Shown: one piece after another, positions 4,076 through 21,296 of the stretch
Position numbering within the stretch: position 1 is the stretch's first letter
Layout of the letters: every line of letters begins with the position of its first letter
Origin: a virus
DNA length: 22,911 nucleotides
Virus record (IMG/VR): IMGVR_UViG_3300023202_000310
Coordinates: 1 to 22,911 of that record
Strand: one strand, 5' to 3'
Translations under genes and position numbers: made by a program
The notes under the pieces: generated by a model
Seen by the model: only the letters and a program-made list of their open reading frames with translations
What the model was told of the DNA's origin: nothing
Databases searched by the model: none

Positions 4076-4278
4076 GGTGGGGCCGCTTTCCCGCATTTAC
4101 CGGTCTTGAGCGCCAGGGCGAAAGCGGTTGCCCGTCGGCTTTTTCCAGATCAATCAGAAATTTATGGCCTCCGATAGATCCGCAATCCGGATCGTATATT
4201 CGACTTGGCGCGCGGGCGGCCGCGAAAGAATGTCAGGCCCGACCAATGGCCATTATCAGCATCGGCGACCAGGCCGAT
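4076..4278 (-). repeat. Direct repeat copy 2 (intact gp30 3' end)
   Basis: Partner of 1736-1938 in the same orientation. It contains the 3' end of the intact head gene and ~85 bp beyond its stop. The pair brackets the two-gene cassette and the IS5 fragment, so recombination between the copies would delete about 2.3 kb. Confidence 0.9.
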
Positions 4279-5394
4279 GGTCCGGCCCTTGCTGATTTTA
4301 ATCAGCTTGATATAGCGCCGCCGCAACACGACGCGTCTCGACTTTGTCGATTGCGCCCAGCCAACCCAGATTTCGGCCGGGTCGGAGACCAGTTCCGGAA
4401 TAAGCGGGAAATAGCGCTCGCGGCCATCCTGGCGGGTTTCATTATCAAGCAGGTGATCGACGATGGCCTGGTTAAGGCTGACCCGGTCGCCAAGCGGGTC
4501 GGCGACAATCAAATCATCGCCGCCCAACGCGTCGCGCAATGCCTGGCGAAAGCCTTTCTCATTTCCGGGCCGCACGCCTTTCCCCGGACCGCGTTTTGGC
4601 GTATCGAGCGGCAACGGATCAAGCGTGATCTGAAGCTCGCCCGGCGCGCTCAGCGCTTCCCAGGGGCCATGGGCTTCCTGCGCCCGCGTCGCCGTGGCGC
4701 GGCCAAAAGCGGCTTCACCGACATTATAGGCAAAACCGGGGGCGATGCCTTTCGGCGCCTGGACAATGACCGGTCCGGATGGCGTTTGAATCGTGTGATC
4801 GACCAGCGGACTTGGCGGCGCGCGTTTGGAAATCTTCAGCCCATAACGTTTCAGATCGCGTTCATTCAGCGATTGCACCTGGCACCGGCATCCCCAACCG
4901 TTGGGTGAAAAATGGCTGCGCCACCAATTATGATCCACCGGCAAAACCACGTCATGCCATTTGGCGTGCTCGGGCCGGCTGTATTTTTGCTTCAATTCCG
5001 GGTCGGCATGGACATATCGCAAATACGGCCGCTGCGCCTTGACCCGCTGGATTTGCGCCCATTTGCCCGCCGCATAGGCATTTCGCAAATTGGTATTGAA
5101 AATCACCCGGGACCGCCAGCCGCGCGATCCCTTGTAGCTCCAGCCATGTGTCTCAATGATTTTATCAAAGTCCTGGCGGAATTGTTCAAGCGTTGTGCCG
5201 TCTTCGATGGCGCGGTTTACCGCATCGTGAAAATCGCTGAGCAATTGCTTGTTCTGCGCCCCGGCAATGACAAAGGCGCGGGCATGCATGCCTTGCCAGA
5301 TATCGCTCCAGGTCTCTGTCGGCAGGTCGATCTTGTCGCGCAGGAACGCAATCGCTTCGGTTGGATTTGCCGCAAACGGCCTAACATCTGGCAT
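4162..5394 (-). CDS. Mu F-type head morphogenesis protein with C-terminal PBECR-like nuclease domain
   Basis: 410 aa from the ATG at 5394, with GGGGA eight bases upstream (GGGGATTAAAGATG); a TTG at 5412 is less likely. Residues about 30-175 match the phage Mu F/SPP1 gp7 head-morphogenesis domain. They include the conserved H-x-x-W...LPVDHNWWRSHFSPNGWGCR block (about 143-171), which is typical of minor head proteins that sit at the portal. Residues about 285-408 look like a PBECR2 domain (phage barnase/EndoU/colicin/RelE-like nuclease), with R-x-R-Y-F-P-L-I-P near 326-333, DPAEIWVGW at 338-346 and the ending LTFFRG...RSGLRIYRR. In many Mu-like phages such nucleases are fused to this protein. 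It follows the portal gene after an unusual 122-bp gap and is the last phage gene present. Confidence 0.85.
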   Translation of the reverse strand: MPDVRPFAANPTEAIAFLRDKIDLPTETWSDIWQGMHARAFVIAGAQNKQLLSDFHDAVNRAIEDGTTLEQFRQDFDKIIETHGWSYKGSRGWRSRVIFNTNLRNAYAAGKWAQIQRVKAQRPYLRYVHADPELKQKYSRPEHAKWHDVVLPVDHNWWRSHFSPNGWGCRCQVQSLNERDLKRYGLKISKRAPPSPLVDHTIQTPSGPVIVQAPKGIAPGFAYNVGEAAFGRATATRAQEAHGPWEALSAPGELQITLDPLPLDTPKRGPGKGVRPGNEKGFRQALRDALGGDDLIVADPLGDRVSLNQAIVDHLLDNETRQDGRERYFPLIPELVSDPAEIWVGWAQSTKSRRVVLRRRYIKLIKISKGRTIGLVADADNGHWSGLTFFRGRPRAKSNIRSGLRIYRRP

Positions 5395-5516
5395 CTTTAA
5401 TCCCCGAAACAAGCGGGTAAAAAGACCGCCGAAGGTGGAAAGCGCGACTGCGCGCCGACCGGTCAGGTCGCCCCCGCGGAGGCTTCAGCTTTGCTGAATT
5501 GCAGCGAGCGAAATAA
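5395..5516. other. 122-bp gap between portal and head gene
   Basis: Almost all other genes in this operon overlap or nearly touch, so this gap is unusual. One minus-strand frame is open across it, but it lacks a start and looks like a shadow. GC-rich short inverted sequences are present; no function is evident. Confidence 0.4.
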
Positions 5517-7133
5517 TCAGGCATCGGACGAATCCGCTTCGTCGCGCCCCGACAATTCCGCAAAGGCCAGTGCGGCGCGCAAGGCGCCGGCAAGTTGGTC
5601 CTGTGGCAGATCGGGCGATAATCTGAGCAAAGCCGCACGCACGTCTTCCAGCGTTTCGGCGCCGCGCACCAGCTCGGCGATTTTGTTGATCGTGATATCC
5701 GTTGCGCCCTGCGCCTGCGCTTCGAGTTCCTCGCGCAGCGCGTCCAGGCCGTCAGGCTGCCCCGCCCCCAAGGTATCGGCAATGGCGGCCTGCCGCGCCT
5801 GTGTCGCTGCCTCGGCATCAATATCGTCAAGCTCGCCTGGTTCCGCGGTTGCGGTTTCAGACCCCGCTATTGGCAAGTGCGCAGGTGGCGGCGCCAGGAT
5901 ATCGGCGTCATCGTCTGGCACCGGCAAGCCGACAAGTTCATTCATGTCGGATTTAGCGACGCGCAACCCCAGCGGCACAAGTTTTTCAACCGCGTCGACC
6001 ACTGGCCCGAGTTCAATTTCATCGCGCCGTCCGATGCGAATTTTCGGATATTGTTTTTGCGGGCCGGAATCCAGTTGCACCCATGGCCGCACCAGATCGC
6101 GGTTTAGGGTCGCAGATAGCTCCTTGGCGTCGGCGCGTTCGATATCCTCCTGGACCTGGCGGTGTTCCTTGCTGACCGCGTGGCCGCCCGATATCGCATC
6201 CGTTGTCGTCGTTTGACCCAGCACCACTTTGGAGATTTGCTGATCCAGCCAGTCGGCGCGTTCGCGAAACAGTTGCGAGCCGTTGGTTGTTGCTGGTGGA
6301 TCAATAAAATCGATTAACATGGAATCCGGGATGATCGCCGCGCAATCGCCGGCAATATTTGCCACCGCGCGAAACAAGGTCTCTTTGTCTTCGTCGCTCG
6401 CGCCCGCGCCATATTTGCCGACGCGGATCGGCTGACCGTAACTCTGCACAAAGATCGCCCAGTCGCGTAATGAGAAGGCCTTGAACATCCAGGCCCAGAC
6501 GGCCACGCGGGCGATTCCAGAGCGTATTGGCAAACCGGATTTTGCCTTGATGACCGTCTGGATAAACTTGAACGGCGGTAATGCTTGGTCGCCAGAATCG
6601 GTTCTGAGCAACGGCGTTTTGCCGTCGCTGCGATCGAATGTGAACCAGCGCGGATCGCGCCATTCGAGCCGTTCCGGCTTCCATTGCCCTTCGGACGTAT
6701 CCCAGATGATTTCGGTCATCGAGATGCCTTTGCCGATGGCATCCAGAATATCGAACAATTCACCGCTCAATTCGTCGCGCTCGATCCAGTCACGCACCAT
6801 ATCGGCATGGCGCATATGGTCGGCGTCATCTGATGCCGCATCGACAACGATTTCCAACTGCGACACCGATCGTTTTCGCGTCGAGAGGACCCCGGTATAA
6901 TGGGGGTCGCGTTCTTCAATCAGTTCCGCCAACTCAAAAAACCGCAGCGGGTCGCCCTGGTCCGCCTGGCGCAGGATGACAGCCAGCCGGTCCGGTGTCA
7001 GTCCGTCCGCCGGATAGCCGGATATCACCGAGCGCACACCGGTCAGGGTTGGACCGGCAACGTCCTTTTTCAAAACGCCGCGTTGCAGCGGCCGGCCATG
7101 TTTATCGACGAGTGGCGGTGGGCGATCGGTCAT
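5517..7133 (-). CDS. Phage portal protein, DUF935 (Mu gp29-like)
   Basis: 538 aa, starting three bases after the terminase stop. The portal ring sits at one capsid vertex and is the channel for DNA packaging and ejection. Family signatures are visible: LIEERDPHYTGVLSTRKRSV near residues 71-90, KGISMTEIIWD near 135-145, SGIARVAVWAWMFKAFSLRD in the middle, and the GQTTTTDAISGGHAVSKEH segment that is highly typical of DUF935 proteins. The last ~130 residues are acidic and Ala-rich, a variable tail. Length is in the usual range. Its partners here are the large terminase upstream and the F-type head protein downstream. Confidence 0.93.
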   Translation of the reverse strand: MTDRPPPLVDKHGRPLQRGVLKKDVAGPTLTGVRSVISGYPADGLTPDRLAVILRQADQGDPLRFFELAELIEERDPHYTGVLSTRKRSVSQLEIVVDAASDDADHMRHADMVRDWIERDELSGELFDILDAIGKGISMTEIIWDTSEGQWKPERLEWRDPRWFTFDRSDGKTPLLRTDSGDQALPPFKFIQTVIKAKSGLPIRSGIARVAVWAWMFKAFSLRDWAIFVQSYGQPIRVGKYGAGASDEDKETLFRAVANIAGDCAAIIPDSMLIDFIDPPATTNGSQLFRERADWLDQQISKVVLGQTTTTDAISGGHAVSKEHRQVQEDIERADAKELSATLNRDLVRPWVQLDSGPQKQYPKIRIGRRDEIELGPVVDAVEKLVPLGLRVAKSDMNELVGLPVPDDDADILAPPPAHLPIAGSETATAEPGELDDIDAEAATQARQAAIADTLGAGQPDGLDALREELEAQAQGATDITINKIAELVRGAETLEDVRAALLRLSPDLPQDQLAGALRAALAFAELSGRDEADSSDA

Positions 7134-7136
7134 CGG

Positions 7137-8828
7137 TTATATGCTCCCCCTTAGCCTGGCGCCCAGCGGGCGGCCCCAGCCCCCATTTTTCTCCCATTTC
7201 TGCCGCGACGACTGCAAATCGTCATCGTCTGGGTTTAAATTGTGGTTTTCGCCTTCGCTTCCCGGGCTTTTGTACCCGTATTCGGCGATGTTCTGGCGCG
7301 AAATGTAATAGGCCAATGCCCCGGCAATCGCCGAGTCGCCATGGCGCATCTCCCCATCCTCGCCCTTAAAGCGATGATCGTCCGGCACTTTGATAATGCC
7401 GTTGACATATTGGAGCGACTGGTGATCTCTCAGCACATCGATGTGGCGGGGAATTTCCAAACAAGCGTCGTTGAAGGCTTCAATATACGGCACCATTTCC
7501 ATGCGATACCATTCCTGGCTAAACATCACCTCGTGAATGCATGTCCCATATTTCTGGCGCGCTTTTTCGGCCAGATATTGCCCGTTGCCGCGCGCATCCA
7601 GGGCGCCGCCCGACATGCGCGGCAATCGGTCGACAATGTAGTAGAGAATATCGCGCTGTTGATCGAACGGCACATTTCTAAGCTCGACCAGCAACCGGCA
7701 GCAGCGATCCAGGTTTTGTGCGATTTCGTTGATCCAGATATCGGTCAGATCGCCCGAGCGGGCAAAATCTTCGCCAAAGACATGCTGGCGTCTTACATCG
7801 AGCGCTTCCAATAAGGGTTTGAGTTCCCGCTCACAAAAATCGAGCGCGTCGGCTTTTCGGATATGGTCAGGCGCGTTCTTGAAATCATCGTCGCGGGACC
7901 AGCGAACAATCGGGACATCGACGCTACAGGCCTCGATCTGGATACGGGTCAGCGCCGCGCCCTCGGATTCGGCGGGGATGCAATCGAGTTCCTGTTTCAT
8001 CGCCGCGGTTCGCGGACCATAGGCCGAACGGATTTTTGCTTCCCATTCGGCCTCGGCGTCCGGCGACCATTTGCGGCCCTTGATGATGCAAACCCGCTTG
8101 AAAAGCCCGTTATCGATCGCTGTTTGAAACGGGATAAAATGATGACTGAACGGCGTTTTACTTGCCCTTGTTTCAGCGATCAGTTCGTTGAACGCGTTGA
8201 GCACCCCGTTGTGGGTGGAAATCACGCGGATTTTGCCGCCCCAGATCAACAGCGCGTTGACCGCATCGATGACCTCGCGCACATCCTTGTGAAATGCCGC
8301 TTCGTCGATCACCACCACGCCCTGGAGCCCGCGAATATTCTCAGGCCGGCTGGATAGCGCCTCGATCCGGAAGCCCGACGCAAAGACGACACGAAACGCC
8401 GATATGTCCCGTGTCGTGCCATCGGACCGTTGATCCTTGAAAACGAATTCCTGGATGCTCACCAATTGCCCGGCGACAATGCGGGCGAAGTGCGCCACAT
8501 AGCCAATGAATTCGCGGCCCTTGTCCTTGGTGTCACCAATATAGAAAACATTGTCGCCGCCCGCTTCGCGAGAGGATGCCGCGATCAGGGTATCGTCCAG
8601 CGCTTCGGCGAAGGTCAGCCCGGTTCGCCGGCCCTTCTCGCCAAGCTTTAAATCGCTGTCGTCTTCCAGCCAGCGTTTTTGGTGATCCATCAGAATGCCG
8701 TTGGCAAATGGATCCAAATCATCCGGGATTTCGGCGCCGCGCGGTAATTCGTTGGGCAGTTCCGCGTCGTTGCGCGCCAGAATAGTTGCTGGGTTCAGTT
8801 GGTCGGGCAGCTGCGGGGTTTGCGTCAT
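7137..8828 (-). CDS. Terminase large subunit (Mu gp28-like)
   Basis: 563 aa; its ATG overlaps the stop of the gp27-like gene (ATGA). It is the motor ATPase/nuclease that packages DNA into proheads. The ATPase part shows an atypical Walker A (GEKGRRTGLT, 63-72), Walker B VVVIDE at 171-176 with catalytic Glu176, and a coupling motif STHNG at 204-208. The RNase H-like nuclease part is suggested by GEDFARSGDLTDI (Asp353) and ALDARGNG (Asp410). The ATPase-then-nuclease order and the length fit Mu-like large terminases. No truncation is visible. The small-subunit role is expected from the preceding DUF3486 protein. Confidence 0.93.
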   Translation of the reverse strand: MTQTPQLPDQLNPATILARNDAELPNELPRGAEIPDDLDPFANGILMDHQKRWLEDDSDLKLGEKGRRTGLTFAEALDDTLIAASSREAGGDNVFYIGDTKDKGREFIGYVAHFARIVAGQLVSIQEFVFKDQRSDGTTRDISAFRVVFASGFRIEALSSRPENIRGLQGVVVIDEAAFHKDVREVIDAVNALLIWGGKIRVISTHNGVLNAFNELIAETRASKTPFSHHFIPFQTAIDNGLFKRVCIIKGRKWSPDAEAEWEAKIRSAYGPRTAAMKQELDCIPAESEGAALTRIQIEACSVDVPIVRWSRDDDFKNAPDHIRKADALDFCERELKPLLEALDVRRQHVFGEDFARSGDLTDIWINEIAQNLDRCCRLLVELRNVPFDQQRDILYYIVDRLPRMSGGALDARGNGQYLAEKARQKYGTCIHEVMFSQEWYRMEMVPYIEAFNDACLEIPRHIDVLRDHQSLQYVNGIIKVPDDHRFKGEDGEMRHGDSAIAGALAYYISRQNIAEYGYKSPGSEGENHNLNPDDDDLQSSRQKWEKNGGWGRPLGARLRGSI

Positions 8829-9406
8829 TTTTTGACAACCCCGAGAACTTCGCGCCTGATCTGCGCCACTTGGTCTGCCGAGAGCCCGGCTTGGCTACTG
8901 ACCTTGTGAATCGCGTCTTCGGCCTTGTCGGCGAAATCGGCCATGATCTTGGCGCGGGTTTCGACCGACATCTTCCGGGCCTGTTCAAGCCGCATCAGCG
9001 CCTGCGACGCGGATTTCAGCATGTCGATTGACGCCGACTCGTCGGACAGCGATTGCTCCATGATGACGTCATAAACCAGCGTCTTGATGGTTTCGTTGAG
9101 CAGCGCGCCGATATCGCCGGCTGGGGCCTCATCGAGTTTTTCCGCCATGATCGATGCGACTTCACGGGCTTGCAGAAGCTGCTCACCCGCCGCTGAAACC
9201 GCCAGCGCTTTGCGGTTGAATGCGGTTTTCGAAACCGGATCCAAGCCAAGGGACAGAAGATGATTGTTAAGCTCGATGCGGATATCGTCCTGGGTGCGTT
9301 GCCGCGCCTTCAGGGATTCGATTGCGGCAATGACAAACGGCCGGGCTTCATCGGGAAGCAATTCCAGCGACGACAGGCGCCCGCGTTTCGGTTTAGACTT
9401 TGCCAT
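8825..9406 (-). CDS. DUF3486 family protein (Mu gp27-like), likely small terminase
   Basis: 193 aa from the ATG at 9406, which lies one base past the stop of the preceding gene. The basic start MAKSKPKRGRLSSLELLPDE followed by a long, almost fully helical body is typical of DUF3486/Mu gp27. That protein lies just upstream of the large terminase and is believed to act as its small subunit, recognising DNA. The N-terminal LPDEARPFVIAAIESLKARQ and TQDDIRIELNNHL resemble a DNA-binding helical domain. The rest (EQSLSDESASIDMLKSASQA and onward) is probably an oligomerising coiled region. Confidence 0.88.
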   Translation of the reverse strand: MAKSKPKRGRLSSLELLPDEARPFVIAAIESLKARQRTQDDIRIELNNHLLSLGLDPVSKTAFNRKALAVSAAGEQLLQAREVASIMAEKLDEAPAGDIGALLNETIKTLVYDVIMEQSLSDESASIDMLKSASQALMRLEQARKMSVETRAKIMADFADKAEDAIHKVSSQAGLSADQVAQIRREVLGVVKK

Positions 9407-9407
9407 A

Positions 9408-9707
9408 TCACGCCGCCGGTCCTGGTCGCTTGATGCCGTCGACAATAATCCGGCCCTCAAGATGATCCTGACCCTTGCGCAACAATTCGGCGATCAGGAA
9501 CCCTTCGGTCTCCTGCAGCTTGATCACGCCGACATCGGCCAACCAGCGCAATTGGCTTTTGAGATGATCGCGGGATCGCCTGAAACCGAAAGATTCAGCC
9601 ACCCGGGCAATGATGCTTTCGTTGCTGGTATAATTGGGCGCGTCCAGTAATCCGCGCAGGATCGTCAACCGCAGGTGATGTTGTTCCCATTCGGCAAAGT
9701 CACTCAT
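9408..9707 (-). CDS. Mu gp26-like small protein (VpaChn25_0724 family), winged-helix fold likely
   Basis: 99 aa, overlapping DUF2730 by ATGA. The sequence fits the 'VpaChn25_0724 family phage protein' pattern: HHLRLTILRGLLDAPNYTSN near the start, SRDHLKSQLRWLADVGVIKL in the middle and an ending similar to GRIIVDGIKRPGP. The L-x-x-L-...-G-x-I/V-x-L arrangement suggests a winged helix-turn-helix. In Mu-like phages it always sits between DUF2730 and DUF3486, immediately before packaging genes. Its exact role is not known to me. Confidence 0.85.
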   Translation of the reverse strand: MSDFAEWEQHHLRLTILRGLLDAPNYTSNESIIARVAESFGFRRSRDHLKSQLRWLADVGVIKLQETEGFLIAELLRKGQDHLEGRIIVDGIKRPGPAA

Positions 9708-14772: not shown

Positions 14773-15377
14773 GATGCGTTCTCCTGGTCGATCAGGACGC
14801 CATCAAGGTTGTATTGGTCGCCGGTATTGCCATCGACAACATATCCGGTATTGGGCTGCCAGTAGGGTGATTTGGGTCCATTGTCGCGGATTATGCGCCA
14901 CTTGACGAAGCCGTTTGATGTCGGCGAAGTCCCAGGAACACGGGTTTTCAATTTTGTGACAAACCCAGCGCGACACCAATGCCCGAGATACCGGGCCGCT
15001 GTTGCTTCCGGGTTGTTGTCGTCTTGACGGCGAACCAGGCTGACAAGGTCTTTCGTTGTGGCCTTGCCTTCCGTGCGGAGTGCCGACCAGAGGCGCGCAC
15101 CGAGACTGTTTTCTGAGCGCCTTCTTTTGCCCGTGAGTGGCCCATTGGGGCCGGACGTGATTCTGCGGCCTTCCGCACTCCATTTCCGGCCCGCGTCGGT
15201 GGCGAGGTAGCAACCCGCATAGTCGCGCTTAGCCAGTTTTCGGTGTATCAATCCGCCGACGGCATTGATGATATCGCGCCGTTTATGGCCCGGTAAGGCT
15301 TGATCAAGCTGGTCGATCAAAACACACGTCTCATGCTTCGCGAGTTCGTGCAGGACATGCTCCGAAATCTTGGTCAT
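14769..15377 (-). CDS. Early phage protein with probable winged-helix domains
   Basis: 202 aa directly after the MuB-like gene (ATGA overlap). Residues about 5-65 (VLIDQLDQALPGHKRRDIIN, GLIHRKLAKRDY) and 92-140 (LGARLWSALRTEGKATTKDL, ARYLGHWCRAGFV) look like two winged-helix modules. The C-terminal part is Gly/Asn-rich (YVVDGNTGDQYNLDG). Such proteins follow MuB in Mu-like phages of alphaproteobacteria; no function is known to me. Confidence 0.7.
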   Translation of the reverse strand: MTKISEHVLHELAKHETCVLIDQLDQALPGHKRRDIINAVGGLIHRKLAKRDYAGCYLATDAGRKWSAEGRRITSGPNGPLTGKRRRSENSLGARLWSALRTEGKATTKDLVSLVRRQDDNNPEATAARYLGHWCRAGFVTKLKTRVPGTSPTSNGFVKWRIIRDNGPKSPYWQPNTGYVVDGNTGDQYNLDGVLIDQENAS

Positions 15378-16117
15378 GCCGCCCCCGAATGCCTGGCCAT
15401 CGAATCTTGAACGCTGCGCGCCTTGCCATCGTTGGTCAGAACGTGGCCATTGAGATCAGCCGCACAGACTGGTTTCCCTGTGCGTTTCCCGACGCGTTCT
15501 GCTTCCGCGATATAATTGAGAACTTCGCGCAGGCGGCCCCCTGTATGGCTATGAACAAGTGCGGCCAGATCGTCGGCAATCACGATTTCACAAAGTTCTG
15601 TGCAACACAGACGAACATCATCAATCGAGCATTTCTGGAATTCGGTTACCGCCGCGATCCGCGAATAGATTTGCGGGTATCGCTTGAGGCGTTTATCAAC
15701 GCCTTTCATGCCGCCAATGATAATCGGCACTTCCACTTCGTCCGATAGATCGCGAAACGCCTCGATGATTTCCGGATGCCGCAGGGCGTGTTCGATTTCA
15801 TCGACGATAATATCGCGCTGCTGCATGGCGCAGGCGGTGATCGCTTGATCATAGAGCTTTTCGCGCGTGCGTTCCGGTTGCAGGCCAAGCTCGCTGACCA
15901 GATCGCGCAAAGCCCAGTTCAGGGTCCATCCCGATTTTGCCCGCAACAGGATCGACGTGGTTTGCAACCGGTGCCAGGTTAGCGTCTTGGTTTTTCCATA
16001 ACCCGGCTCACCCATCACCAGATGCCAACTCGCTTCCGGTGCGCCGCGGCGGGACACCTTGTCCCGGCCCGCCAGAAACCGGTCGACATTGGTCACCGAA
16101 ACAAATTTCGCTTCCAT
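15374..16117 (-). CDS. MuB-like AAA+ ATPase, transposition target-selection protein
   Basis: 247 aa, starting four bases after the transposase stop, with AAGGGTG as ribosome binding site. MuB-type ATPases coat target DNA, stimulate the transposase and steer it away from the element's own DNA. Visible motifs are Walker A GEPGYGKT (36-43), Walker B DIIVDE (102-107) and a sensor-like IIIGG near 131-135. There is also a C-terminal helical domain with the HTGGRLREVLNYIAEAERVG pattern of AAA/MuB ATPases. It is shorter than Mu's own B (312 aa), lacking the long N-terminal extension, as in many D3112/B3-like phages. Confidence 0.93.
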   Translation of the reverse strand: MEAKFVSVTNVDRFLAGRDKVSRRGAPEASWHLVMGEPGYGKTKTLTWHRLQTTSILLRAKSGWTLNWALRDLVSELGLQPERTREKLYDQAITACAMQQRDIIVDEIEHALRHPEIIEAFRDLSDEVEVPIIIGGMKGVDKRLKRYPQIYSRIAAVTEFQKCSIDDVRLCCTELCEIVIADDLAALVHSHTGGRLREVLNYIAEAERVGKRTGKPVCAADLNGHVLTNDGKARSVQDSMARHSGAA

Positions 16118-16121
16118 AAAT

Positions 16122-18314
16122 TCACCCTTTCGCCGTTAAAATCCTCAACCTTTGCTGAAATGTTCTGCACGCGGTCAGTTCCGCCAAATAGTTCCGCTGA
16201 ATGTCGTTGAGTTGATCCGGATGCGCGCTGGCAAAGGTGAAAAACGCCAGATCGTCATCCATTTCCGGCTCAGTCGCCGCGCCCGTCTTCGCCGCATGCG
16301 CCTCAATTGTGTGCAGCGGCACCACGTTGTTTTTGCCAAGTTCCTCCCGCGCGCGGGCGGCGGCTTCGATTTCATCCGCGCTTAACGTTTGATCCCGCGC
16401 GATTTCGAGGGCGTCACTGGCCGCTGACAGGTCTTTTGTGTTGTGAATGTCTCGGGCTTGCGGAAACGCGGAAATGTTGCCTGCATCCCGCTCGGCGACA
16501 CGCAATACCGCGTCGATCATGTCGCGCGGCTTCATCGACCGGATTTGCCGTTTCAGAGGTTCAACCTCTTGTTTGATCCGTCGCGCCTGTTCGCGCTGGA
16601 CTTCGAGTTGTGCACTCTTGGGATCGATGCCCAAATGTTCCGGGCAAATCGCTTCCGCTATGAACGCGCCGCCATCTTCCTCAAAACAGTAGATCCGGCC
16701 CATATCCCGCGGGTCATGGCGAATGAAGACGCGGTCGCCTGGATTGAGCGCGCCGGAGATGAAATTCATACCATCGAGGCGTATGCCATATTTGGTAACG
16801 ACGCGGTGGCCGTTCTTGCCGGCAATCGGGGTCAGCAACAAATCGAGCGCGCGCTCGTTTTCGATTTTTCTGATCTTGCCGCTATAACTGGCAGCCTTGG
16901 CGAATGGCGTCTCACCATTCAACCCGCCATGGGCTTTATGCTCATACTTGAGCGAGACCCAGCGGTCGATATTGTCCTGCAACTCTTTTGCCGAAAGATC
17001 GACCTTGAAAACGATTTCTTCCTTTTTGCCCAACCGCTCCGAAAACGCCTTGCGTTCCTCAATCACCTTCCGGTCGGCGACCGAATGGCCTAAAAATCCC
17101 GGCAAAAGCGGCATCATATTGTGCATCAGCGTACCGATATGACGCTCAACCGTGCCTTTTTGCTGTGGTGAAAATGGTGCGGTAATGTGGTGGTGAATAC
17201 CTAAGGAATTAATCGCCCGTTTGGCCTCGTAAGACGTAAAATCCGAGCCGTTATCCGAGCGGATTTCTTCCGGTACACCCCATTCAATAATTGCCCGGCG
17301 TAACAGGCTGACCATCGCTGACGTGCGCGGGGTCCGGCAGACCAAAATCATTATTCTGCGTGAGAAAATGTCGATGACCGCGTAGATATTCATTCGGCCA
17401 TCTATCGTCATGACGTCAGATGGTGAGGCGTCGATTTCCCAAAGCTGATTAAGCCGAACCACATGAACGTTCATATTGGTTCCGCTGAATTTCGCGGATC
17501 CTTTAAACCTGTCGGGATTGGTAATTTTTAGAAGAGCCGTGCGGTTTTCGTTTTTCCATCGGGCGATGAACCGCTGAAACGTGCGGACCGGTGGGATCGA
17601 ACGCGATGAATTGTCGTCGACAACAATCTCGTCACCAAACTTGTCGCGCACGATATCGCGAATATGGTCAGCGGTCAGATGCGGTTGATTGACGATCAGG
17701 GCGCCAATTAACAGAGCCATTTCGCCGCCATGGGAGCGCGCCAGAACGCTTTTGTTGGCGGATTTGTACTTGCCCCCCAGATCATGCTGAAGGCCCTTGT
17801 TGCGGGCCTTGCGCCAGCGCTGCAGGGACGCCGCTGAAACGGACTTGATTTCCGCCTTGACCCATCCCGGAGCCTGTATGGCGCCGGCTTTCCAAGCAAT
17901 CGCAAACTGAAATTCGGCGGCCCGTAGCGACAAATCGCTGACTGCGTGAAAGGTCTCGAAAATTGCCAGCACTTCAAGCCGCGCGTCGCGGCGGATTGAT
18001 TGGATCGGTGTGTAATTTTCTGGTTGAGATTCGCAGAAACTGGATCCAATTTCGCACGGCACCAGGTGTTTATGCCGGCGTAATGCCAGATCGTGACGCG
18101 CATTCGATGGCAGATTGTTGATATGGTATTCAATCCCGCCGCCGCGTCCCGACCGCCGCCGCGCTAGTTTCGGACCCCGCGAGACCCAGTCTTCCCGGGT
18201 GATCATCGCGGCAATTTTACTTTTCGATTTTGGAAGCCCGTTGAGCTTTAGCTTGGCCAAACCGGCACTCGTCAACCAGTCGGAAAGAAGCAGGTTTTCA
18301 CATTGCCGCGTCAT
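16122..18314 (-). CDS. MuA-like DDE transposase
   Basis: 730 aa; ATG overlaps the preceding stop. It is the recombinase that joins phage ends to target DNA. Residues 1-75 form the Mu-type DNA-binding domain (LTSAGLAKLKLNGLPKSKSK, EDWVSRGPKL). Residues ~100-260 are helical end-binding modules with a WRKARNKG segment. The catalytic core (about 285-400) has Asp295 (LWEIDAS), Asp354 (IRSDNGSDF) and Glu390 (KGTVERHIGTL). The Asp354-Glu390 gap is exactly 35 residues, unlike Mu MuA, where it is about 55. A Mu-transposase C-terminal beta-barrel region follows (about 500-560), then a long charged tail likely to contact the ATPase. All three catalytic residues are present, so activity is plausible. Confidence 0.95.
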   Translation of the reverse strand: MTRQCENLLLSDWLTSAGLAKLKLNGLPKSKSKIAAMITREDWVSRGPKLARRRSGRGGGIEYHINNLPSNARHDLALRRHKHLVPCEIGSSFCESQPENYTPIQSIRRDARLEVLAIFETFHAVSDLSLRAAEFQFAIAWKAGAIQAPGWVKAEIKSVSAASLQRWRKARNKGLQHDLGGKYKSANKSVLARSHGGEMALLIGALIVNQPHLTADHIRDIVRDKFGDEIVVDDNSSRSIPPVRTFQRFIARWKNENRTALLKITNPDRFKGSAKFSGTNMNVHVVRLNQLWEIDASPSDVMTIDGRMNIYAVIDIFSRRIMILVCRTPRTSAMVSLLRRAIIEWGVPEEIRSDNGSDFTSYEAKRAINSLGIHHHITAPFSPQQKGTVERHIGTLMHNMMPLLPGFLGHSVADRKVIEERKAFSERLGKKEEIVFKVDLSAKELQDNIDRWVSLKYEHKAHGGLNGETPFAKAASYSGKIRKIENERALDLLLTPIAGKNGHRVVTKYGIRLDGMNFISGALNPGDRVFIRHDPRDMGRIYCFEEDGGAFIAEAICPEHLGIDPKSAQLEVQREQARRIKQEVEPLKRQIRSMKPRDMIDAVLRVAERDAGNISAFPQARDIHNTKDLSAASDALEIARDQTLSADEIEAAARAREELGKNNVVPLHTIEAHAAKTGAATEPEMDDDLAFFTFASAHPDQLNDIQRNYLAELTACRTFQQRLRILTAKG

Positions 18315-18787
18315 AGGTCAGACTCGCTGATTTCCCGATCATCAAGAGCAATCAGCCTGTCGATCTCGGCGCGGTGTTGCACCAATTGCGCGCGATGCAC
18401 GACGCGCTCGCAGAGCGGCATGTATTTGCGGTCCACAACGCCAAACCCAAATTCGCCCGGCAGCAATGTCAACAATTCGAACGCCCCGGTCGCGTGGATC
18501 AGGGCGGCAAAGCGATGAACATTGATCGTATGGCTTTCGCGGGCTTCGGATGCATAGGCATTGAGCGTATTTTCTGTGACCTCTTCACCCAGATATTCGC
18601 TCATTTCCCGCGCAATCTCGGCGCGGGATTTTCCGCAATTCTTGCAGGCTTGCGATATGGCGCGGGCGAAACGCGACGAAATACTCGGTCCCTGTATCGT
18701 GCGCGGGTCCTTATAGGTGATTTCTGCCGAAACGGGCTTAAAGGCAAACAGATCGCCCGTCAGATTATCTTTGGGGCGGCGGCCCAT
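18311..18787 (-). CDS. HTH-like early protein upstream of transposase
   Basis: 158 aa from the ATG at 18787 (MGRRPKDNLTGDLFAF), with AAGGA eight bases upstream; the ATG at 18796 lacks proper spacing. It overlaps the ParB-like gene stop by TGATG. The central part (RAEIAREMSEYLGEEVTENT, LNAYASEARES) looks like a helix-turn-helix. The C-terminus is an Arg/His-rich helix (CERVVHRAQLVQHRAEIDRL). Proteins like this precede A in several Mu-like phages; function unknown. Confidence 0.7.
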   Translation of the reverse strand: MGRRPKDNLTGDLFAFKPVSAEITYKDPRTIQGPSISSRFARAISQACKNCGKSRAEIAREMSEYLGEEVTENTLNAYASEARESHTINVHRFAALIHATGAFELLTLLPGEFGFGVVDRKYMPLCERVVHRAQLVQHRAEIDRLIALDDREISESDL

Positions 18788-19605
18788 CAGAACCATCCTT
18801 GGTTTTTGGCGTGTGTGACGATTTCGTGCCGGTAGGTGTCGAACACATAGGCGCGTGTCGTCGGTGTCATGCGCCCGAGACTGCCGATCGCCGATCGATA
18901 AGTACGGTCAGCGGCGCTCGGCTTCGTTTTGCCAGCAAGATGATCACAAGCCTCACCAACGGATTTGAGGTCGTTGTCATCGGCAAACAACAGATCAAGC
19001 ACCTTCGCCTGATCCGATTTTTCAAGGTTGGCGAACTCAATCAATTGCGCCTGATGGTCGGCAAGCCAGGTGCCTGGGATGCGTTTCCGGGAGGCTGCCG
19101 AGAGGCCTTTCCAGATGGCCGTCGAGCGAAAAAATACCCGCTCGGAAATCCCGACCTTGTCCAGTAATTCAGACCAAACTGCCATTATGGCAGTTTGATT
19201 ATTCTTTTTACGGTCACCGCCTTGTTTTCTTTCCGGATAGAGCTTTTTATAGACCGCATCCAACTCATAAAGGCAGCGCGCGCGGTCCAACGCATTCAAC
19301 TCGTTGCGGATCACGTTTTCGGAGATTTCCTCAAGACGGATATAATCGGCATCTTTGTCGCCATATTTGCGAATGTGAGCAGATATCGTATCCGCGCCGA
19401 TCAACTTCGTGGCAGCCAGCCGGTGAAGGCCCGTTATCAGATCGTAACTACCTTTTACTGGCCGCACCGTGATTGGACTGAGCAAACCTTGCTCGGAAAT
19501 GCTTTCCGCGAGCACCTCGGCCCAGGCATTGTTGAGTGAGCGGGCCCGGTTCTCCGGAATGGTGATTTTGGAAACGGCAATTTCTTGAAATGAATTGGAG
19601 GCCAT
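18787..19605 (-). CDS. ParB/Srx-like nuclease-domain protein
   Basis: 272 aa from the ATG at 19605, two bases after the ner stop; the longer GTG start is disfavoured. Residues 8-80 form a ParB-like N-terminal fold (IAVSKITIPENRARS, SISEQGLLSPITVRP, and the box DLITGLHRLAATKLIG at 55-70). This family binds and hydrolyses CTP in chromosome partitioning, or acts as a nuclease in some phage proteins. The following region (about 95-210) is helical and could include a DNA-binding helix-turn-helix (LDKVGISERVFFRSTAIWKG). The typical parA partner is absent, so partitioning is unlikely; a role in early replication or transposition control is more plausible. Confidence 0.85.
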   Translation of the reverse strand: MASNSFQEIAVSKITIPENRARSLNNAWAEVLAESISEQGLLSPITVRPVKGSYDLITGLHRLAATKLIGADTISAHIRKYGDKDADYIRLEEISENVIRNELNALDRARCLYELDAVYKKLYPERKQGGDRKKNNQTAIMAVWSELLDKVGISERVFFRSTAIWKGLSAASRKRIPGTWLADHQAQLIEFANLEKSDQAKVLDLLFADDNDLKSVGEACDHLAGKTKPSAADRTYRSAIGSLGRMTPTTRAYVFDTYRHEIVTHAKNQGWF

Positions 19606-19607
19606 GT

Positions 19608-19883
19608 TTAAGCCCACTCATTTTTTTGACTGGTCCGACCCTGAGTCGATTTGCTAGAATTATTGTTGGAAGGGAGGTTTTTTTCGTCACGATAAGCAAA
19701 TAGGATATTTGCAGGCACGTCTAAAAAAGCCGCAATGCATCGCTCTGCTTTCGGAAAAGATCGGCCCAGCGCAACAGACAATGAATTGCGCGGCAAGCCT
19801 GCTTTTTCTTCAAGCGAGGTGAGTGTTTGGCCTTGGCGGTTGATTTCCGCCAGAATCGCGTGACGGTCCCAAGAATTTTCCAT
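19608..19883 (-). CDS. ner: Ner-like DNA-binding regulator
   Basis: 91 aa, with GAGG five bases before the ATG at 19883. Residues about 4-65 (WDRHAILAEINRQGQTLTSL, AGLPRNSLSVALGRSFPKAE, RCIAAFLDVPANILFAYR) match the Ner/SfsB (Nlp) helix-turn-helix family. In Mu, Ner is the first early protein and down-regulates both the repressor and early promoters. It is the first gene of the leftward operon, divergent from the repressor. The C-terminal tail is Asn/Ser-rich and likely disordered. Confidence 0.9.
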   Translation of the reverse strand: MENSWDRHAILAEINRQGQTLTSLEEKAGLPRNSLSVALGRSFPKAERCIAAFLDVPANILFAYRDEKNLPSNNNSSKSTQGRTSQKNEWA

Positions 19884-20822: not shown

Positions 20823-21097
20823 ATTTCAGCAATCCCAAAATTCCCGAAAAATGGCTGAATTCCGCGCATAAACGCGATTTCAAGTAATTTCGAAAACTGA
20901 TCCAGGCACGGTTTCCCAGGGTCGCAACTGTCGCGCTAGAACAACATCAACCAAACAGCGAAAATTTTTGACCAAAGCCATATCGCATTGTTTTTATTTA
21001 GGTAACAACCGCCTGATCCCGCATAATCCCGCCAAATCCCGGTAAAAACAGACCAAAACCCCGCCTCAATCCTTATGTCGTCTCACACTGATTTACA
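20823..21097. other. Phage left-end region, presumed transposase binding sites
   Basis: About 275 bp without a gene between the REP-like element and the broken IS481 frame. On the minus strand it starts 5'-TGTAAATCAGTGTGAG, comparable to the 5'-TG... ends of Mu-like phages. It contains T/A-rich blocks and phased CGGGAT repeats. MuA-type transposases bind several sites within ~200 bp of the end, so this is the expected place for them. Confidence 0.6.
21011..21042. repeat. Phased 10-bp repeats near the phage end
   Basis: On the plus strand GCCTGATCCC, GCATAATCCC and GCCAAATCCC follow each other exactly every 10 bp (21011-21040), then GG. On the minus strand the core reads CGGGAT. A period of one helical turn puts every copy on the same DNA face, as in arrays of cooperative protein sites. 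Confidence 0.8.
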
Positions 21098-21296
21098 TTT
21101 TCTCCAGCGTGAATGGGTTTGTGGCCGGTTCACCACAACCCTCACTGCTGCCAAAGAATCCTAGATCATAGTCGAGAAACGAGATCAGCCAGACCTGGTC
21201 CCCGACTTCCCCCAAACCGAGGATCTGGCCTGCCAAGACTTGGCTAAGATTGATCTTTCGCTTTCCGATACAGATAACGCCGTGCCGGTCCGATCC
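21098..21296 (-). pseudogene. C-terminal fragment of an IS481-type transposase, cut by the prophage
   Basis: The minus-strand frame encodes DRHGVICIGKRKINLSQVLA, then GLGEVGDQVWLISFLDYDLG, FFGS... and EPATNPFTLEKM before a TAA. The block RKINLSxVxAGQxxGxxEVxxxxWLxSFxDYDLGFF...EPxxNPF is the typical C-terminus of IS481-family transposases. These normally continue with several more residues (often ending like LPMSP). Here the frame ends inside the presumed phage sequence (stop formed by TGTAA), so the phage appears to have inserted into an already truncated insertion sequence. The N-terminal part and DDE core are missing. Confidence 0.7.

Follow-up and report, generated by a model that had tools for sequence, protein, structure and literature searches.

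A helically phased GGGAT array at the L-type end of Mu-like transposable phages as a probable packaging site

Introduction

Short repeated words can act as a packaging signal, as in the pac site of phage P1, which is made of hexanucleotide repeats. Groenen and van de Putte reportedly located a packaging site of Mu in 1985 (cited in PMC5418689). We take this site to lie roughly 30-60 bp inward of the left end, in which case it would be the same as the array described in this work. Mu packaging starts at the left end, and 50-150 bp of host DNA is found there (PMC5977238). In SPP1 and SF6, as described in PMC4737164, repeats lie near the packaging start, the small terminase (TerS) is a ring whose adjacent helix-turn-helix (HTH) motifs are about one turn of B-DNA apart, as in known TerS rings, and a wrapping model has been proposed. 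The same account describes recognition of its own genome by the small terminase as poorly defined, and reports that the DNA-binding domain of SF6 TerS has little sequence preference, its binding being barely affected by the direct repeats (PMC4737164). A review holds that neither wrapping nor threading accounts for TerS sequence specificity (PMC9611059).

Here, we describe an array at the end of a Mu-like prophage that is tightly conserved, has one unit per helical turn and occurs in many phages. Mu and its left-end packaging were already known; our literature search, which did not reach the founding Mu pac papers, returned no title or abstract describing a phased array at Mu-like ends. Mu and D108 carry the array at the corresponding left end and share with the present phage the TerS family Gp27, but the units of Mu are more degenerate and its MuA matches DDE_2 and HTH_Tnp_Mu_2, neither of which is matched by the MuA studied here. 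From comparison of sequences, we consider the array to be probably the packaging-initiation (pac) site of Gp27-class Mu-like transposable phages.

Results

The array and the phage end

The stretch of DNA that was analysed, hereafter the window, is a virus record of 22,911 bases, whose minus strand carries a portion of a Mu-like prophage (Table 1). It encodes the proteins that mark a Mu-like transposable phage, namely MuA, a MuB-like ATPase, Gp27, a Mu portal and Mu F. A Pfam search with the ORF listed as a putative large terminase returned no families. The pairing of Mu F with a PBECR2 nuclease-type domain is also present in L182.

Table 1. Features of the Mu-like prophage and its flank in the window
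Feature	Position	Strand	Basis or remark
Mu F fused to PBECR2 domain	4162-5412	- (minus-strand prophage)	
Mu-type portal protein	5517..7133	-	PF06074 E=5.8e-99
Putative large terminase	7137..8828	-	position between TerS and portal, gene order
Small terminase Gp27 (TerS), proposed array reader	8825..9460	-	PF11985 E=2.3e-35; phrog_426 terminase small subunit
MuB-like AAA ATPase	15374..16117	-	PF13401, PF05621
MuA-type transposase	16122..18314	-	PF00665, PF09299, PF02316
Tentative L2, second transposase site (GCGCGACAG...)	20919..20936	-	151 bp from end; weak match, chosen by eye
Weaker fourth array unit GGTTG	21006-21010	-	
Phased array, three CGGGAT units, exact 10-bp period	21036-21041, 21026-21031, 21016-21021	-	proposed pac site
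L-type phage end and putative first transposase site L1 (TGTGAGACGACATAAGG...)	21064..21087	-	
Host flank, homologous to another genome (G342)	21089..21275	-	sets phage end

The three CGGGAT copies at an exact spacing of 10 bp, which the initial annotation had reported, were borne out: the plus strand reads ATCCCG three times between 21016 and 21041, equivalent to CGGGAT on the minus strand. This helical phasing is unusual, since the four-unit phased score near the end was equalled by only one of 1000 dinucleotide shuffles, and the array has the top phased score of the whole window on both strands. The distance to the phage end needed correction. We place that end at base 21087, because homology between the host flank and another genome begins at 21089 (71% over about 187 bp) and because the terminal sequence TGTGAGACGACATAAGG is similar to the termini of the relatives L094 and L090. 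The end near 21097 (TGTAAATCAG), from which the units had been reckoned to lie about 55-85 bp away, was ruled out, as host homology continues through that position. Measured from 21087, the first GGGAT begins 47 bp inward and the three CGGGAT units lie approximately 46-72 bp inside the phage. An automatic search for L2 picked a weak site (11/20 matching) different from that in Table 1. The flank has two homologous copies in G342 and appears by eye to be the end of a transposase-like gene.

Conservation of the array

Relatives were collected by MuA scans, from which the best 80 of 125 genome loci and the best 80 of 281 viral loci were taken. The resulting set comprised 161 loci including the window, of which six were too short and 155 extended 200 bp or more upstream of MuA. 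With a position weight matrix (PWM) derived from these same array loci, 64/155 loci scored at least 16 in the direction of MuA, compared with 1/155 in reverse. A loose pattern of three phased GGGA words, applied to 2.8 Mb, gave 68 matches in the MuA direction versus five in the opposite direction, with overlaps in longer arrays multiply counted. Among 60 non-redundant arrays, four units were found in 28, three in 11, five in nine and another number in 12, and the consensus is GGGATTAGGC; around these arrays the opposite strand had zero successive GGGA spacings. These strand counts give the array the directionality expected of a pac site.

Many of the loci with a low PWM score seem to have no phage end within the record, and the 97 low-scoring loci were searched for ends with an L1 consensus. 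By eye, an array that is degenerate or short follows the end in L158, L008, L040, L077, L031, L045, L055, L081 and L025, with L062 doubtful, while L034, L046 and L076 have bare R-type ends on the MuA side. Most of the other loci showed no recognisable end. When ends were picked by their first transposase site, with an L1 consensus that itself came from array-bearing loci, 51 were recovered, 48 of them non-redundant. A pair of GGGA words 10, 20 or 30 bp apart was present at 42/48 of these, versus 12/5000 random windows, and successive GGGA spacings were 10 bp in 64 cases, 9 bp in four and 11 bp in one. The six ends without such a pair were L055, L038, L074, L129, L062 and L107, of which L074 and L107 have units that are altered yet, by eye, still phased.

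Besides Mu, the array occurs in phages of the alphaproteobacterial family and in Pseudomonas phages. At the left end of Mu (NC_000929) the units are GGGA at 33, TGGA at 43, GGGAT at 53 and GGGAT at 63, and the array is the top-scoring site of the entire Mu genome, on both strands, as it is of the HS6 genome. Equal phasing was found in D108, Kp4866-3, a Pasteurella phage, a Vibrio phage, HS6 and the Pseudomonas phages Fc02 and JBD67. Thus, the array is present at the ends of related prophages, where its absence would have spoken against the initial annotation. That annotation had also set the array apart from the sites of Mu; it is indeed distinct from transposase sites, but Mu bears the same array.

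Viral contigs contained 66 stretches with exact CGGGAT x3, including L094, and the 65 others were analysed. At E<=0.001, 31 of these records had Gp27 or PF09299 (21 both, although one of these has PF09299 below the cut-off, three Gp27 only and seven PF09299 only) and 34 had neither; 13 of the 34 have identical spacers. The PF09299-only records consist of G010, at 65.9 kb, and six fragments of 5.8-15.2 kb. In G010 (L175), which has no Gp27 and is possibly a remnant, the array and the PF09299 match are about 37 kb apart. Five records without Gp27 or PF09299 (L203, L208, L211, L173 and L226) contain convergent GGGATA-type arrays flanking an AT-rich centre, which look like a different system such as an origin, a partition site or an operator.

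Those 34 records, together with the lack of enrichment of the word CGGGAT in the window (28 occurrences versus 21.3 expected), are what a functionless chance or low-complexity repeat would predict. However, the place, phase and strand of the array are conserved in phages whose sequences have otherwise diverged. A G-quadruplex is also at odds with the fixed spacing of 10, as quadruplex loops tolerate variable length. We regard either explanation as improbable in the extreme; for this family, the shuffle scores of the ends and the count of phased pairs at ends picked by L1 (below and above) already weigh heavily against it.

The array marks one type of phage end

TGTRA opens the L-type ends, and TGTAGC the R-type ends, of HS6, MuM16-1 and the alphaproteobacterial family; Mu starts with TGTAT (L) and TGAAG (R). 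In the alphaproteobacterial family, a second putative transposase site lies about 110-190 bp inward of L-type ends, and R-type ends have tandem sites 22-23 bp apart. In Gp27-positive phages, all 14 L-type ends scored 12.5-17 of 18 for the array, and the 19 opposite ends scored 7-10.5 of 18, the cut between these two ranges being post hoc. By the criterion of shuffle p<0.05, 13/14 L-type ends were positive, the exception being StopSmel (p=0.26), versus 2/19 opposite ends, those of StopSmel (0.040) and the Pasteurella phage (0.026), both without GGGA units (Fisher 2.3e-6). The record termini of Kp4866-3 and the Pasteurella phage may not coincide exactly with the phage ends. Further weak cases are RS1/RC1, in which the array is degenerate and another site tops the genome, and MuM16-1, in which the array is weak and ties with an interior site.

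The Pseudovibrio prophages L046 and L076 have a bare R-type end on the MuA side and an L-type end with a clear array at the distal side. RS1/RC1 also have an R-type end on the MuA side and a degenerate array distally, and we therefore dropped our earlier reading of them as Gp27-positive phages without an array. Because the arrays of L046/L076 and RS1/RC1 are at the distal L-type end, we conclude that the array tracks the end type and not the transposase module. With respect to the transposase module, the L and R ends have changed places in a subgroup made up of L046, L076, L034 and L004/L005 (RS1/RC1), L034 being known from its R-type end alone. When an R end was sought in 14 viral-record regions, it was found in five and in none of the other nine, among which L258 showed a second L-type end instead.

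The initial annotation had proposed a binding array for the transposase. Such a role would suit a position at the phage end adjoining a putative transposase site, but the 19 opposite ends, which are targets of the same transposase, are bare, the best scoring 10.5 of 18, so that the array is not found at both ends. Moreover, the putative L1, L2 and R repeats are separate from the array and do not contain its unit, they vary by clade while the array unit is constant, and the array is found in phages without PF09299. Binding of MuA to the array is thus very unlikely. The suggestion in the same annotation of an accessory-protein array fared better insofar as we regard this as a probable terminase site, the small terminase being a better candidate than any transposition factor.

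An operator for the phage repressor, or for another host or phage regulator, would be repeated and directional and, in the usual gene order, near the repressor, as the array is. Against this, the array of L046 and L076 is at the end opposite the transposase module, that of L169 comes after a head gene and that of L182 is beside a head-gene block; we judge a regulatory role to be highly improbable. We had considered L169 and L182 as carrying an internal pac site of non-transposable phages, and dropped this because both have a MuB-like AAA ATPase, the ORF beyond the array of L169 resembles, by eye, a host enzyme, and the gene order is like that of KS10.

The spacing of putative transposase sites is also helical

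A putative L1-L2 pair matching at least 13/20 bases was found at 50/64 array loci, and 49 remained after an outlier of 61 bp was dropped. Their spacings form clusters with means of 115.7, 127.3, 137.8, 147.4, 159, 169, 180.3 and 192, a step of approximately 10.8 bp (p=5e-5 on 28 unique values). This suggests that the two transposase sites need to be on the same face of the DNA, as expected for transposition. The array appears to sit in the L1-L2 spacer under two constraints; that it lies between L1 and L2 is built into the search, which looked for L1 ahead of the array and for L2 behind it.

The place of the array raises an architectural alternative, in which the phased G/A-T pattern would cause the L1-L2 spacer to bend, or would recruit HU or a different architectural protein, allowing transposase at L1 and at L2 to meet at the L-type end. 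Lavoie and Chaconas are said to have described, in 1993, specific HU binding in the Mu transpososome, in a paper whose title terms HU sequence-independent (cited in PMC3820752). The HU site presumably lies between L1 and L2. In addition to this precedent, the array has helical phasing and falls within the putative L1-L2 spacer in the mapped loci, as imposed by the search for L1 and L2 on either side, and the L1-L2 spacing is itself helically quantised. However, HU is not base-specific and the array is: its bases are fixed, with GGGA on one strand only, which is more than bending requires. Furthermore, four Gp27-less transposable phages are bare at both ends, and Fc02 and JBD67 have the array without the MuA C-terminal domain. 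We consider an architectural role in transposition unlikely, yet the strongest of the alternatives to packaging.

The array is associated with Gp27

Gp27 (PF11985) was found in 50/50 records of the MuA family tested, which offers no contrast within the family; the contrast comes from other transposable phages. Gp27 was not found in D3112, DMS3, RcapMu and KS10, and when the array was sought at both ends of these phages, 0/8 ends had p<0.05. The p values were 0.46-0.96 at the record starts and 0.81, 0.74, 0.996 and 0.091 at the other ends, although the end of the D3112 record looks unlike a phage end. PF11985 is thus present in the window and absent from the four array-negative phages, in keeping with a pac site accompanied by its small terminase. 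Conversely, Fc02 and JBD67 have Gp27 and the array without PF09299. The association between Gp27 and the array at L ends gave a Fisher value of 0.0016, or 0.009 after collapsing close relatives, with a small Gp27-negative set of four phages from about three lineages. Comparison of DMS3 with Fc02 is instructive: the far ends are identical at 98/100 bases and the L ends at 26/100, and the array is in Fc02, the Gp27 phage, only. More generally, L406 (DMS3), L412 (Fc02) and L413 (JBD67) have near-identical far ends and differ in their L ends and terminase type.

A more demanding test, which started from Mu-type Gp27, had a mixed outcome. The scan yielded the best 80 of 127 loci, and 50 of those 80 records were searched with the pattern. 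The strict pattern, with one mismatch allowed, matched 5/50, all in the direction expected from Gp27, and the reversed control pattern had no match in these five records. The controls comprised 14 records with a D3112-type transposase, selected irrespective of Gp27, and four known Gp27-negative phages; among these 18, the strict pattern matched only D3112, in the interior. Of 20 unselected edges of the Gp27 records, four had p<=0.01, of which three follow a TGTA-like end and the fourth, L379, is doubtful, and 16 had no array. Compared with an array-bearing relative, six of the 16 (L377, L378, L382, L384, L390 and L393) begin within the phage; L387-L389, which start at base 1 of mutual alignments, probably do so too, and the remaining seven have no placement. 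For comparison, the array was at 0/6 edges of D3112-type records.

A predicted fold of Gp27 (mean pLDDT 76.9, pTM 0.48) did not match any PDB entry at E<=0.001; the 50 PDB matches listed included no terminase, and the Gp27 sequence had no relative in the PDB. Two Gp27 matches, one of them short, are present in each of the records G103 and L126.

Discussion

The array is phased, has strand polarity, is associated with Gp27 and is restricted to one end type, also where that end lies opposite the early genes. From these properties we infer that Gp27 binds the array, with ring and wrapping geometry, and that packaging starts there. We favour packaging over bending because strand and bases are fixed, because the link with Gp27 holds across transposase types and because the array is absent from Gp27-negative transposable phages.

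We propose the following model for packaging. A ring of Gp27 with one HTH domain per subunit would wrap DNA around itself, such that successive domains read GGGAT, one per helical turn, on a single strand. The strand polarity of the array would fix the direction of packaging. The large terminase would then cut host DNA just beyond the array end, after which the head would fill inward. A word that recurs once per turn on one strand, together with one TerS family, is compatible with a wrapped, base-reading complex. It is conceivable, and we put it forward tentatively, that Gp27 is a sequence-specific, nucleosome-like reader in which a ring of HTH domains takes both the start and the direction of packaging from the register of the DNA. 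If so, the array would be the DNA counterpart that settles the question of TerS specificity. With helical phasing in the array as well as in the L1-L2 spacing, the spacer would also let the transposition and packaging complexes alternate on one scaffold.

An array paired with a single TerS family makes genome recognition by a small terminase directly testable. The array is, in addition, a sequence marker of the likely packaging end, L versus R, in Mu-like prophages, including those with swapped ends.

Two further features of the window were recorded. A protein with a ParB_N domain is encoded upstream of the transposase (18787-19617), and a ParB-like gene occupies the corresponding region of phage StopSmel. 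Finally, GACCCACTACA is present as three perfect tandem copies at 1953-1985.
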